A DNA stretch of 64,000 bases from Gillisia limnaea DSM 15749 (GTDB lineage: Bacteria > Bacteroidota > Bacteroidia > Flavobacteriales > Flavobacteriaceae), in contig NZ_JH594606.1 of assembly GCF_000243235.1 (NCBI RefSeq), positions 1 through 64,000 on the forward strand, in the 5' to 3' direction. Below, in pieces: positions 1-6,953 of the stretch. The notes beneath the pieces were generated by a model. That model saw only the letters and a program-made list of their open reading frames with translations, was not told the origin of the DNA and ran no database searches. Both the position numbers and the translations under genes were made by a program. How positions within the stretch are numbered: position 1 is the stretch's first letter; every line of letters begins with the position of its first letter.

Positions 1-213
1 ATAATAATTTCACTTTCTCTAATTAATTCTAACTGCACTCTTTGCCTCTTGCTGTCTCCAATGAATCTACCGACAAACTCAGTAGCACTTCTTGGCTTTT
101 TAGTTTAGAGCATTCTTAAAGGTATCTAAAAAATACTCATATTTCTTTTTGCTTGAGTAGGTCAAATGGTGTAGAACGTCTGCGTATAAGCGCCGTTTTT
201 TTTCAAATGGCGC
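1..213 (-). pseudogene. Broken coding region at the window edge
   Basis: On the minus strand an open frame runs from just after a stop at 214-216 to a TAA at 100-102. It contains the peptide RRLYADVLHHLTYSSKKKYE and ends DTFKNALN. A second open frame, shifted by one base, starts just after a stop at 105-107 and runs to position 1. It reads KKPRSATEFVGRF, then GDSKRQRVQLELIRE. Both stretches look protein-like, and reading through a one-base shift near 102 would join them. No ATG is visible in the first frame. The gene therefore looks frameshifted, or else it is two overlapping pieces of a cassette-like ORF truncated by the window. No family is recognised. The first frame also crosses one arm of the inverted repeat at 182-221, so part of it may be translation of repeat DNA rather than a gene. 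Confidence 0.3.
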
Positions 214-294
214 TTATGCGCCGTTGCGTGCAGTAATTTAGCATTATTTGGTTAATAATGCGAATCAAAAATTACGAAGTCAGACGGGTGCTAC
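171..294. repeat. Three-way-junction inverted repeat (attC-like folded site?)
   Basis: Three stems nest here. The outer stem pairs 171-174 with 291-294 and 177-182 with 281-286. Arm 1 pairs 182-194 with 209-221: 13 bp, one of them a T-G wobble (185/218) if the plus strand folds, with a 14-nt T-rich loop. Arm 2 pairs 233-239 with 269-275 and 241-248 with 254-261. The arms are joined by CGTTGCGTGCA (222-232). The layout resembles a single-stranded folded recombination site such as an integron attC, but the canonical attC core GTTRRRY is not present. A structured RNA is the alternative. The wobble pair favours the plus strand. Confidence 0.6.
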
Positions 295-305
295 AATAAT
301 TTCTT

Positions 306-619
306 TTAAAATGGATTTTATTTTTACTTATGTGTCTTTATCCTCTCGCGCTGGATAAAGCATCGTTGGTAAAAAATTCGGGCTACGAGTCCAACTCCTG
401 GAATTAAACTGCAAAATTACCGGAAATCCTCCATAGAAAATATGGTTTCTTTCCGCTACCTTTCCTCAGACTTTGGTACGTGTCAACGTTCTGATAGTAA
501 AACTCTCAACGATTTCAATCGCACAAGTCTGAAAAAGGGAGCCTTCCTTTGTCCGCTCCCTTGATTTAATTCCAGGAGTTGTCCACATTTTAGTAACCTT
601 TCCGCAAAATCCATTTTAA
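306..619. repeat. 314-bp nested palindrome / candidate structured RNA
   Basis: Concentric exact inverted repeats define this element. The outer pair is 306-319 with 606-619 (14 bp). The middle pair is 392-408 with 565-581 (17 bp, CAACTCCTGGAATTAAA). The inner pair is 466-473 with 525-532 (8 bp), extended by 459-463 with 534-538. Local hairpins sit between them: 336-343/353-360 (8 bp), 421-426/450-455 enclosing 431-435/441-445, and 537-542/555-560. No convincing ORF crosses it. The multibranched order fits a large structured RNA or an elaborate recombination or transposition end. A MITE with 14-bp terminal inverted repeats is another possibility. I do not recognise it as RNase P, tmRNA, 6S RNA or a group II intron. 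The strand of any transcript is undetermined. Confidence 0.6.
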
Positions 620-635
620 TTTCCAGAAGCCCGTT

Positions 636-650
636 TTATTGCATGCAACG
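636..650 (-). repeat. Inverted copy of the repeat core motif
   Basis: On the minus strand this reads CGTTGCATGCAATAA. It matches 13 of 15 positions of CGTTGCGTGCAGTAA at 222-236 on the plus strand; both differences are G/A transitions. It lies between the recombinase stop and the 314-bp palindrome, so the two cores flank that palindrome in opposite orientation. It may be a recombination half-site. That role is inferred only from position and similarity. Confidence 0.4.
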
Positions 651-676
651 TGCTATATCGAGAGCAATTTACTCTT

Positions 677-1855
677 TTATCCCAAATTGTTGCGGGATAA
701 ACGCATGTTTTCACCCTCTTTATCGTTTTTCGCAAGTTCTCCAAGGGTAACATCCAAAGGACTCCTTATTTTTAAAAGATCTTTTTGCGCCACATGGGTA
801 TAAATCATCGTGGTCTCCGGCCTGGAATGCCCTAAGATTTCCTGTATATAGCGTATGTCGGTTCCGTTCTCCAGCATATGGGTGGCAAAAGAATGTCGCA
901 GGCAGTGGGGGGAAACCTTCTTCAGTATCTTAGCACGCTGGCAAGAGACTTTCAAAAATGCCCTTACTGAAGATGAACTGTATGCCACTCCTTCCAATCC
1001 TTCAACAAAATAAATCGCTGGTTTATAGGTGTTCAAATAATTGAATAACAACGGAATAATGCTCTCTGCCATCACCACATTCCGGTCCTTCCTGCCTTTG
1101 CCCTGGTGCACATGAACCTGTCGCCGGTCCACATCAAGATCGGCTATTTTTAAATTCAACAGTTCCCCAATCCGTAATCCCGAAGAATATATCAGGGCAA
1201 GCACTGCACGATGTTTTAAATTGCGGGTAGCTCTCAAAAGGTCAATAATTTCTTCTTTGGAAAGTACAGTGGGAGTATAGCTGCTTTTTTTGGGCGAACT
1301 TATAACCTTAGGATCAATATTAGATTGTGTGTACAATCTGGCAAAATGTTTCAGCCCGCTAATACATTGGCGATGCGTGCTTACTGCATACCTCCTTTTA
1401 ACGATCACCTTCTCAATAAATAGCTCCACATCCCTGTTTGTTAACTCCGAAGGATCTTTTTTCTGAAACTCCAAAAATAGGAATACAAAATTATAATAGG
1501 TTCTTACCGTGCTTTCCGAAAATCGTTTTCCGCGCAAATAGGAAACAAACTCCCATAAAATTTGTCGGGTTTCTTTTGAAATCTCCGGTTTTACAAAACC
1601 TTCCTTTTGTGCTACTGGGTCTTTTATATCTTTTAATGCTGAATAATCTACGTACCAACCCTTATCATTAAAATGCTGAAAAAGCCGTTGTTTGTTTTCT
1701 GAAGTTAATTCCAGGTAAAAGACCCTGTGAGTCTGACTCCAGGAGATCCCTTTTAATTTTTTAAGATGCGATTTGATCGATTCATCAAAATCAAAACCTA
1801 TAGCAATCTGAAACCTATTACGGTGCCACAAAGGATTTAGAACAATTTTTTTCAT
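677..1855 (-). CDS. Tyrosine recombinase / integrase (XerD/IntI-like)
   Basis: Site-specific recombinase of the phage-integrase family, 392 aa. Order of parts: an extra N-terminal domain of about 75 residues containing the motif WSQTHRVFYLEL, typical of Bacteroidetes integrases; a SAM-like core-binding domain (about 93-180); and the catalytic domain (about 197-370). The full catalytic set is visible: R228 (SSGLRIGE), K253 (QGKGRKDR), H317 and R320 (SPHCLRHSF), H343 (LGHSRP) and nucleophile Y352 (IYTHV). The tail after the tyrosine, KIRSPLD, recalls the ending of XerD/IntI-type enzymes. The ATG at 1855 gives a normal family length. The gene stands alone and its 3' end points at the structured repeats at 171-619, which suggests those are its substrate or a linked element. 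I see no excisionase or phage genes in the window. Confidence 0.9.
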   Translation of the reverse strand: MKKIVLNPLWHRNRFQIAIGFDFDESIKSHLKKLKGISWSQTHRVFYLELTSENKQRLFQHFNDKGWYVDYSALKDIKDPVAQKEGFVKPEISKETRQILWEFVSYLRGKRFSESTVRTYYNFVFLFLEFQKKDPSELTNRDVELFIEKVIVKRRYAVSTHRQCISGLKHFARLYTQSNIDPKVISSPKKSSYTPTVLSKEEIIDLLRATRNLKHRAVLALIYSSGLRIGELLNLKIADLDVDRRQVHVHQGKGRKDRNVVMAESIIPLLFNYLNTYKPAIYFVEGLEGVAYSSSSVRAFLKVSCQRAKILKKVSPHCLRHSFATHMLENGTDIRYIQEILGHSRPETTMIYTHVAQKDLLKIRSPLDVTLGELAKNDKEGENMRLSRNNLG

Positions 1856-4729: not shown

Positions 4730-5068
4730 TTTGATTGTAAAATTTGATTAGAAGTCGCTTATTTCAGCGGGATAAATGTATGAAAAAATATGCATCAACT
4801 GTTATTTTCATTATTAAAAAGTTTACAGATAAATTTAATCAAATACCTGATAATCAATAAATTAACGTTTTATAAACAATTGATTGTTTACAAATAATTT
4901 AATTTTCTGAAAATCAAGGGGGTGGAGATTAGCCTGTATTTTAATACTGAATTAATTTTTAATCAAGGTGAAAAAGGGCCTGAAATTTTAATGTAACCGC
5001 GTTAATTAATTAAACCTTTGCGGTTTTATTGAATTACAAGTTTATACAAAACACGTCAATGGTAGACT
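4730..5068. other. AT-rich intergenic region upstream of nrdJ
   Basis: Very AT-rich spacer that should hold the nrdJ promoter. I find no exact TAnnTTTG box and no recognisable riboswitch. A weak hairpin, AACCGC (4995-5000) / GCGGTT (5020-5025), followed by T residues on the plus strand is the only structure noted. No ORF is supported. Confidence 0.4.
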
Positions 5069-5234
5069 GTCACACTGAGCCCGTCGAAGTGAGCCTGTCA
5101 ACCTAAGCCTGTCACACTGAGCTTGCCGAAGTGCCGAAGTGTCGAAGTGTCCAAGTGTCCAAGTGCCGAAGTGAGCCTGTCACACTGAGCCTGTCGAAGT
5201 GTCGAAGTGTCGAAGCGCCGAAGCGCCGAAGTGA
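5069..5234 (+). repeat. Short-repeat cluster, left of the GIY-YIG gene
   Basis: Full units with the core CACTGAGCYTGTCGAAGTG, mostly preceded by GTCA, start at 5069, 5111 and 5179. Between and after them are runs of the shortened unit GTCGAAGT / GCCGAAGT. The cluster ends about 27 bp before the GIY-YIG start codon. Degenerate tails inside the cluster suggest repeated slippage or partial duplication. This is a dispersed flavobacterial-style repeat, not a CRISPR: the spacers are absent or irregular. Confidence 0.85.
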
Positions 5235-5261
5235 TGAGTAAATTAATCCCTATTTTTAAAT

Positions 5262-5573
5262 ATGAAATTATTTTATGTTTACATCGTAGAATGCTCCGAT
5301 AAATCTTTTTACATAGGATTTACCTCAAATCTTGATAAAAGATTGAACGAACATAATTCCGGACTGCATAGAGATTCCTATACTTATAAAAGGAGACCAG
5401 TTGTTTTAAAATGGTTTCAACAGTTTACAGATCCTTCTCAGGCAATCAAGGTTGAAAAACAATTGAAAGGATGGAGCAGAAGAAAAAAGATAGCCTTAAT
5501 TGAAGAAAATTGGGAAAAACTGGTAGAGTATTCAAAAAATTACAGGCAAAACGGGTCTTCGGATACATCCTGA
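5262..5573 (+). CDS. Small GIY-YIG nuclease-family protein
   Basis: Single-domain protein of 103 aa. The GIY-YIG fold is clear: YVYIVEC (residues 5-11) and FYIGFT (16-21), then the arginine helix LDKRLNEHN (about 25-33) and a glutamate-bearing helix in KVEKQLKGW near 65-73. These residues match the metal-dependent nuclease centre of the UPF0213/YhbQ group. No DNA-binding domain is attached. The gene lies inside a repeat cluster, with copies ending about 27 bp before the ATG and starting about 10 bp after the stop, and one inverted copy just downstream. This suggests that the nuclease and the repeats travel together. Substrate and function in the cell are unknown. Confidence 0.85.
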   Translation: MKLFYVYIVECSDKSFYIGFTSNLDKRLNEHNSGLHRDSYTYKRRPVVLKWFQQFTDPSQAIKVEKQLKGWSRRKKIALIEENWEKLVEYSKNYRQNGSSDTS

Positions 5574-5582
5574 GTTTAGCGA

Positions 5583-5769
5583 GGTCTTCGACAGGCTCAG
5601 ACTGACGTGATTGTGGTTTGTCACACTGAGCTTGTCGAAGTGAGCTTGTCGAAGTGAGCCTGTTACACTGAGCTTGTCGACCTACACGTGTCACACTGAG
5701 CTTGCCGAAGTGTCGAAGTGCCGAAGTGTCGAAGTGTCGAAGTGCTGTCACACTGAGCTTGTCGAAGTG
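5583..5769 (+). repeat. Short-repeat cluster, right of the GIY-YIG gene
   Basis: It begins with an inverted copy (5583-5605, GTCTTCGACAGGCTCAG on the plus strand). Direct copies follow at 5620, 5662 (with GTTACACTG), 5690 and 5747, with truncated GTCGAAGTG units in between. The last copy (5747-5769) overlaps the 3' end of ackA and supplies its stop codon. Together with the left cluster it brackets the GIY-YIG gene. Confidence 0.85.
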
Positions 5770-6953
5770 GAAGTGAGTGAAAAAACCTGTTTTGCTATTT
5801 CCAACTCTTCATTGGTTGGGATTACCAAAACATTCACTTTAGAAGCGTTCGTGCTTATCTTCCGGATCTCTTTAGACCGAATGGCATTCTCGTTTTCATC
5901 GAGTTCAATCCCCAGGAATTCCATATCCCTGCAAACCAACGCTCTTATAGTATTGCTGTTTTCGCCAATCCCGGCAGTAAAAATAATGGCATCCAGGCCG
6001 TTCATAGCAGCAGAATATGCTCCAATGTATTTTTTTATACGGTAGGCATTCATTTCAAGGGCAAGTTTGCAGTTGCGATTGCCTTTTTCAGCTTCCGCCT
6101 CAATATCGCGAAGATCGCTGTAGCCTGTAAGTCCCAACATTCCGCTTTTATGATGCAGGAGATCACTCACTTCCTGAGCGGTATACCCCAGTTGATTGAT
6201 CATATAAAAGATCACCGATTGGTCGATGTCTCCGCTGCGGGTTCCCATGATAAGCCCGTTAACAGGTGCAAATCCCAAAGAATGATCGATGCTTTTACCA
6301 TCCTCAATGGCGGTAATGCTGCATCCGTTCCCAAGGTGTATGCTTATAATCTTAGACTTTTTGTCAACTATATGTTCCATAGCTTTTTCTGAAACATATT
6401 TATGGCTCGTTCCATGAAACCCATATACCTGGATGTTATGTTCTTCATAAAATGAATTCGGGATTGCATAACGGTTTGCACGTGGGGGAATACTCCGGTG
6501 AAACGCAGTGTCAAAAACAGCGATTTGCCTTGAGTTGGGAAAAATCGATTCGGCTACTTCAATTCCGGTTAAATTAGGAGGATTGTGAAGTGGTGCCAGG
6601 GAAAACAACGTTTTTATAGTGGTTTTTACCTTTTCATCAATAAGGATGGTTTCTGAAAATTTATCGCCCCCATGAACCACACGGTGTCCAATCGCGGGAA
6701 TTTCTGATGCATTTTTAATCACTCCGTTTTTAGAGTCCATCAATAGCATGGTAACCGATTTTAATGCTTCAGAATGATTTGAAACTTGCCGCTCTTCTGA
6801 AGTTGAAAACTTTTCAGAAGAATAACTCAGTTTCCCCGATTCCTGCCCAATTCGCTCTACAAGCCCAAAAGCTAATACGTGCTCCTCCGGCATTTGGATA
6901 AGTTGAAATTTTAAGGAAGAACTTCCTGAATTGATCACTAAGATATTTTTCAT
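5748..6953 (-). CDS. ackA: Acetate kinase with repeat-derived C-terminus
   Basis: Interconverts acetyl phosphate + ADP and acetate + ATP; partner of Pta in overflow acetate metabolism. The 401-aa protein has the ASKHA-fold signatures: INSGSSSLKF (7-16, N8 and K15), R91 in GHRVVHGGD, D148 in AVFDTAFH, H180 in GFHGTSH, and the second phosphate-binding region around GTRSGDID. The gene lies 61 bp downstream of pta in the same orientation, so it is probably one operon. Oddity: after the normal ending VIPTNEELEIAKQVF the protein continues with a Ser/Thr-rich tail, TSTSTSSV, encoded by a short repeat (5747-5769), which also provides the TGA stop. The catalytic body is intact, so activity is expected. 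Confidence 0.95.
   Translation of the reverse strand: MKNILVINSGSSSLKFQLIQMPEEHVLAFGLVERIGQESGKLSYSSEKFSTSEERQVSNHSEALKSVTMLLMDSKNGVIKNASEIPAIGHRVVHGGDKFSETILIDEKVKTTIKTLFSLAPLHNPPNLTGIEVAESIFPNSRQIAVFDTAFHRSIPPRANRYAIPNSFYEEHNIQVYGFHGTSHKYVSEKAMEHIVDKKSKIISIHLGNGCSITAIEDGKSIDHSLGFAPVNGLIMGTRSGDIDQSVIFYMINQLGYTAQEVSDLLHHKSGMLGLTGYSDLRDIEAEAEKGNRNCKLALEMNAYRIKKYIGAYSAAMNGLDAIIFTAGIGENSNTIRALVCRDMEFLGIELDENENAIRSKEIRKISTNASKVNVLVIPTNEELEIAKQVFSLTSTSTSSV

Follow-up and report, generated by a model that had tools for sequence, protein, structure and literature searches.

What is the nested palindrome that lies beside a tyrosine recombinase gene at one end of a contig of Gillisia limnaea DSM 15749? 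The stretch of DNA that we analysed, positions 1 to 64,000 of contig NZ_JH594606.1 (hereafter the window), starts at a contig end (C2:1); the genome has 3.97 Mb and is assembled in two contigs. A first reading of the letters alone (the sequence-only reading) had picked out positions 306-619 as concentric inverted repeats with no open reading frame (ORF), and had proposed the recombinase's substrate or platform, a noncoding RNA that works with it or a small non-autonomous transposon. We found that the palindrome is the inner portion of a larger unit, 177-648, oriented on the minus strand like the recombinase gene. We consider it likely that the palindrome makes up the body of a gene cassette without an ORF, one that belongs to an integron-like system in Flavobacteriaceae, and, jointly with this, that the platform consists of the recombinase gene, its attI-like site and the cassettes behind them. 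The parts of the unit and its surroundings are the following:

1-176, minus strand: beginning of the following cassette, which the contig end truncates; shares 96% identity with a coding cassette at L024:2857-3041.
177-648, minus strand: ORF-less cassette of 472 bp that holds the palindrome; begins TTGCATGCAATAA at 648 and ends ...CAGACG at 177; five genomic copies.
177-231, minus strand: attC-like cassette end (GCACGCAAC GGCGCATAAGCGCC ... GGCGCTTATACGCAGACG^TT), folded on the identical letters of the L023 copy.
233-283, minus strand: 3' hairpin GACTTCGTAATTT...AAATTACTG, which abuts the attC-like end; from an alignment of 12 sequences and reading by eye.
306-619, minus strand: outer stem C (306-319/606-619), the frame of the original observation; from the repeat finder and the fold z-scores of both strands.
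392-581, minus strand: stem B (392-408/565-581), which surrounds the core; from the repeat finder and from arms compared with shuffled arms in relatives.
453-537, minus strand: conserved core, stem A around three hairpins (a four-way junction); 81.3 bits with covariance model R1, of which the window row is itself a part, and covariation over 44 distinct rows.
649-705, minus strand: attI-like site ending CGATATAGCACG^TT, common to L023:7009-7064 and L021:6001-6063 and resembling the relatives' sites.
677-1855, minus strand: tyrosine recombinase of 392 aa with Phage_int_SAM_4 and Phage_integrase domains, pointing into the array, with no IntI-specific insert.

The symmetry that had drawn attention to the locus is real. 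A repeat finder listed exact 14-nt arms at 306-319/606-619 and exact 17-nt arms at 392-408/565-581, with an imperfect inner pair (459-473/525-539, 80%), and the folding energy was far below that of dinucleotide shuffles on both strands (z -8.3 on the plus strand and -7.2 on the minus strand, with none of 100 shuffles equally low). The reported absence of a gene was upheld as well: the longest ORF in the 472-bp cassette has 43 codons, a length matched in 137 of 200 shuffles. Rfam gave no match at the gathering score in the window, and the weak sub-gathering matches of a permissive search of positions 1-2200 were judged to be chance, none being credible.

The boundaries of the unit came from its copies. 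A same-genome search found five full copies at 99-100% identity and one 82-bp partial copy. All five start with TTGCATGCAATAA preceded by G and have TT right behind their end; the letters beyond that TT differ among all five, and three copies have an attI-like sequence upstream, a fourth has an attC-like repeat and the fifth has other sequence. The unit thus has the exact ends and the free combination with different neighbours of a cassette. Around the copies, ORFs that all point the same way are separated by repeats of ~130 bp, whose BLAST pairs show 81-94% identity. The first letters of the L023 cassettes, compared by eye, are the exact or near reverse complement of those that immediately precede the following repeat, a complementarity of start and end that is also typical of integron cassettes. 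The five L023 repeats fold on the bottom strand. In the clearest of these folds the outer box is CAAC/GTTG, a GGTCTT-like spacer is left unpaired and an inner box follows (for example GGTTAAGGCAA/TTGCGCTTAACC, with one extra-helical base). Boxes, an unpaired spacer and an extra-helical base on a folded bottom strand are the marks of attC sites, so that the locus has the one-orientation cassette array and the attC-like sites, with R and L boxes in a hairpin, of an integron. The noncoding cassette itself ends in one hairpin, shorter than the L023 repeats, which forms on the bottom strand of the L023 copy at -20.9 kcal/mol with DNA parameters. Throughout the arrays, attC identity was judged from fold and boundaries and not with an attC model. 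Because the attC-type marks come together with shared ends, and the unit combines an attC-like 3' end with the lack of any ORF beyond chance, we read it as an ORF-less cassette. Among 21 cassettes of the family, three contain ORFs matched by at most 10 of 200 shuffles (L148 by 2, L137 by 6 and L152 by 10).

The arrays contain other elements. A transposase-like element, named by eye, occurs at L023:12453-14277 and L024:4000-5269 (97-99% identical), in both arrays at the end of an attC-like repeat, after GACCG. Two reverse-transcriptase-like ORFs, which we take to be perhaps group II intron proteins, lie beside the cassette array at L023:14808-17953. A cassette for prolipoprotein diacylglyceryl transferase (LGT) is present in both the window's genome (L024:1931-2761) and Tenacibaculum (L094:3029-3856), with 78% protein and 82% DNA identity, and the Tenacibaculum one stands directly behind the noncoding cassette.

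On the other side of the cassette, the attI-like site adjoins the recombinase gene, as in an integron, with its crossover 28 nt beyond the recombinase stop (677). At about 665-671 it reads TAAATTG; the corresponding place in relatives is taken by TATATTTG-like boxes. The recombinase is matched (E<=1e-40) in 38 of 60 relatives, our genome counted, and, reading by eye the roughly 200 nt past the match, we found an ATATA(A/G)C.nG^TT site downstream of the gene at 16 of the 20 relatives' loci read, or at 17 if a looser variant is counted. In 11 of the 13 attI-like sites listed, a TATATT- or TAAATT-like box, which resembles the Bacteroidetes -7 element, lies 23 or 24 nt before the crossover and points into the cassette. 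The protein scores just below the cut-off of an archaeal XerA/integron-integrase model, and TIGR02249 matches it in two pieces (208.9 bits, cut-off 265). Alignment with IntI4 (2A3V) left two matching pieces that are 27 residues apart in this protein and 70 apart in IntI4, so that the recombinase lacks the IntI-specific additional domain. Because the locus has the anatomy of an integron but fails in this one defining feature of its recombinase, we do not class it among standard integrons.

A further recombinase of this kind, 33% identical, lies elsewhere in the window's genome (G000:C2:1165256-1166329), with one TAG reported within the match. An attI-like site followed by the noncoding cassette also occurs with no recombinase match directly upstream (L021:5526-6063, L023:7009-7539 and L098:1684-2250), and some of these three sites retain an apparent short remnant of the 3' end of a recombinase gene; apparently, platforms either get copied or lose their recombinase gene.

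How widespread is the fold? A DNA search across the family found it in five of 299 genomes, one of which (G282) we judged spurious by eye from its surroundings. A scan of 84,980 species' genomes for a motif of 20 specified bases gave 10 stretches, all of which we take to be Flavobacteriaceae, and a pattern scan of viral contigs gave no match. Covariance model R1, built on the 85-position core, was then run over overlapping genome sets. For Flavobacteriaceae it matched 24 of 397 genomes, of which we judged one to be false; the set for the genus gave 2 of 16, that for the genus of G624 gave 10 of 299, that for the order 4 of 246 and that for the phylum 5 of 345, including one (G678) from outside Flavobacteriaceae. 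The family is therefore present in at least 24 genera (22 of 237 from the Flavobacteriaceae search after removal of the false one, plus two more). The G678 copy is 83.5% identical over 553 bp to the G358 copy, which points to transfer. The false match, L153 (G369), was rejected by eye, having no cassette ends and an apparently coding sequence, and three antisense overlaps (L146 twice and L142) were dropped from the copies; an earlier covariation alignment, A2, still held these four, and alignment A3 includes two weak extra matches in L202.

The compensatory changes that the sequence-only reading had expected of a structured element were found. In the four core stems, over 44 distinct rows, 20 of 22 pairs have changes on both sides, and the covariation score was 0.358, compared with 0.114 (sd 0.009) for shuffled and at most 0.067 for slid controls, with rows fitted to model R1, which favours the structure. 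Stem B is written with other letters in relatives and beats shuffled arms (at most 10 of 200) in 14 of the 22 cassettes tested, and the 3' hairpin is kept in many cassettes, not all. We folded 23 cassettes, of which three lack part of the 3' end, and every one did better than all 20 of its shuffles (z -2.0 to -11.7). Counted from the starts that we chose, G^TT is found at 30 of 31 starts and TT behind 27 of 29 ends, the exceptions being L084, L142 and L151. On this evidence from sequence, the palindrome belongs to a family with a conserved, covarying, predicted multi-stem core across genera.

Does the fold belong to the recombinase or to the cassette? In the loci at hand we counted 75 sense copies (53 after dropping four, plus 5 and 17), and the upstream side was read for 67 of them, seven being unread (L158 and six in L137-L139) and one lying at a contig end (L084). 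By eye, the cassette is first, behind an attI-like site or the recombinase gene itself, in 22 of these 67, several of the sites being divergent and the ambiguous ones of L150, L155/L156 and L134 being excluded from the count; the other copies lie deeper in arrays, mostly behind attC-like sites. A recombinase match stands directly upstream on the same strand in 11 copies:

Loci with a same-strand recombinase directly upstream: the window, L085, L091, L094, L133, L137, L141, L151, L194, L206 and L209.

In L197 the upstream recombinase is divergent. Conversely, the core was found in none of 20 loci fetched by recombinase similarity, of which 13 are informative (in the other seven the contig ends less than 300 nt past the gene), and among 18 of those relatives searched whole only G302 carries the core, far from its recombinase. 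The proposed linkage thus holds in one direction: copies do adjoin tyrosine recombinase genes, but most recombinase-bearing relatives lack the core, and the idea that the recombinase requires the fold is not supported. Of the two roles first offered, that of platform falls to the recombinase locus, and the noncoding cassette is very probably a substrate of the adjoining recombinase, by virtue of its own attC-like end. Recombination of that end with attI would have captured the cassette, moved presumably by the adjoining recombinase, and capture at attI would place it first in the array.

We next considered what the fold does, and hold action as DNA and action as RNA about equally likely. In the model alignment of 29 distinct rows, the core pairs comprise 571 Watson-Crick, 6 G.U, 12 A.C and 32 other pairs (19 of them G.A), whereas the signal recognition particle (SRP) RNA of the same family, aligned with MAFFT and RNAalifold, gave 841, 73, 2 and 8, respectively. 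The conserved letters of the core sit in stems and its loops vary. The scarcity of G.U and the conservation in stems favour a fold maintained at the DNA level, as for attC. Two other counts were uninformative: stem A over 44 rows has 388 Watson-Crick, 9 G.U and 9 A.C pairs, and the SRP end helix gave 184, 2, 2 and 4 others by the same method; a symmetric helix count on SRP RNA, which gave G.U 22 and A.C 23, is insensitive and was set aside as evidence. Since helix-based counts yield no G.U excess even on SRP RNA, they cannot separate RNA from DNA.

We propose, tentatively, that the fold works in cis, either as a cruciform or as folded single-stranded DNA, and raises the capture or copying of its own cassette, which would explain the several identical copies per genome. 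Up to eight near-identical copies occur in one genome. Where stretches within a genome were compared, no cassette but the noncoding one was duplicated in G000, G267, G294 and G586, and almost the same holds for G257; in this comparison both G624 copies went without the label of noncoding cassette, because the cassette of that genome was absent from the queries. The fold may, then, serve the cassette's own spread. In its full form the proposal is of a selfish, gene-free cassette: its four-way DNA fold, formed on single strands, would favour capture of the cassette at attI or its copying, and the cassette would be moved by integron recombinases that lack the insert; with all its parts together we regard this as unlikely.

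Several observations weigh against this proposal or against the wider cassette reading. An unfitted MAFFT/RNAalifold run on the core recovered only six pairs, so that the covariation rests on the R1-fitted alignments, and these six pairs show G.U 7 and A.C 0, which points to RNA; stem B, with G.U 13 and A.C 5, leans the same way. The contrary G.U count is why we put lower weight on action in cis as DNA. G080, with its eight copies, G118 and Tenacibaculum have other duplicated cassettes or sequences too, and the first position in the array is also expected simply from recent insertion at attI. Finally, the insert that the recombinase lacks is held necessary for integron recombination in the passages of PMC9668308 available to us.

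The strongest of the other explanations is that the cassette encodes a structured noncoding RNA, transcribed from attI or from an internal promoter and acting in trans as a regulator or on the recombinase. It would account for a large multi-stem fold with compensatory changes across many genera, for the promoter-like box directed into the cassette in most attI-like sites listed and for the G.U counts of the six unfitted pairs and of stem B, and an ORF-less cassette RNA has a precedent in sRNA-Xcc1 (recounted in PMC6557892, seen in part). It fits less well with the core pairs of the model alignment, where, unlike in SRP RNA, G.U is about as scarce as A.C, with stems that hold the conserved letters, with the lack of an Rfam match and with the absence of the core from most recombinase-bearing relatives. 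We judge this RNA a real possibility that falls somewhat short of an even chance.

That the cassette is a promoter driving the cassettes downstream is improbable. ORF-less cassettes of Treponema, where the integrase also points in cassette direction, act as promoters (PMC6557892, in the portion seen), and on the array strand of 21 cassettes there is a modest excess of TAnnTTTG (10, compared with 5.4 in shuffles, reached by 9 of 200) and of boxes with an upstream TTG (3, compared with 0.64, reached by 5 of 200), with no excess on the other strand. However, the boxes occur in only eight of the 21 cassettes, scattered and in no conserved place, attI already has such a box, and a promoter needs no covarying 300-nt fold. 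We find it similarly doubtful that the arrays are moved in trans by an unseen canonical integron integrase. The missing insert of the adjoining recombinase would speak for this, but of 25 carrier genomes, scored per piece, all 25 match TIGR02249 and none exceeds the cut-off, no match among those listed spans the insert (profile positions 183-235), and in most relatives read the attI-like site lies at the end of this very recombinase gene. A miniature inverted-repeat transposable element (MITE) or other transposon remnant beside the recombinase by chance, suggested by a multicopy, ORF-less unit with inverted repeats, is very improbable, as the arms are internal and do not lie at the unit ends, the ends are unlike each other (a TT start and an attC-like end) and keep the G^TT and TT counts given above, and the neighbours are cassettes, although 'non-autonomous mobile element' remains an apt description of the unit.

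Elsewhere in the window, 5040-5235 and 5580-5775 carry dense short repeats, CACTGAGC(C/T)TGTCGAAGTG, that flank a small ORF (5262-5573) and resemble a separate repeat family.

Returning to the ORF-less cassette, we compared it with known systems. Group IIC-attC introns are likewise noncoding structured DNA tied to attC sites, the recombinase of IS110 is of a different class from ours, and the fold is far larger than sRNA-Xcc1 of Xanthomonas campestris. Unlike the group IIC-attC introns (named in PMC8876359, seen in part), the cassette has no reverse transcriptase ORF and no Rfam group II match at the gathering threshold. The IS110 bridge RNA is also a structured noncoding sequence beside a recombinase (PMC11208160, in part), whereas the recombinase here can do without the element, which has a recombination site of its own at its end. 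Known ORF-less cassettes include some promoters and one trans-acting small RNA (PMC6557892 and PMC8876359, in the parts seen); the Treponema promoter cassettes and sRNA-Xcc1 resemble ours in having no ORF, an attC at the 3' end and first or inner positions, and differ in that ours form one covarying fold family over many genera with up to eight near-identical copies per genome. Reverse-type chromosomal (sedentary) integrons such as that of Treponema denticola share the recombinase gene, the attI-like site, the array of cassettes with attC-like sites and the recombinase in cassette direction, an arrangement known from Treponema and a few others (PMC6557892, in part); ours differs in the missing IntI-specific insert and in its host family, Flavobacteriaceae. 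In the part of PMC9024848 seen, Salinibacter ruber is named for a complete integron in Bacteroidetes. Our searches of the open-access literature on integrons in Flavobacteriaceae and on noncoding or covarying RNA in integrons yielded no description of such a cassette family. Within that scope, a fold family conserved over many genera, set in a platform whose recombinase lacks the IntI insert, appears to be a new form of something already known.

If the platform works, gene capture of the integron type would be common across Flavobacteriaceae, carried out by a recombinase without the defining IntI insert, and tools that seek this insert, as IntegronFinder does, would miss its integrase. One Tenacibaculum genome has been reported integron-free with IntegronFinder 2.0 (PMC10013915, in part). 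The noncoding cassette itself would be a conserved element with a non-coding function, and would offer a natural experiment on how a cassette may profit from being folded and from standing first in an array.
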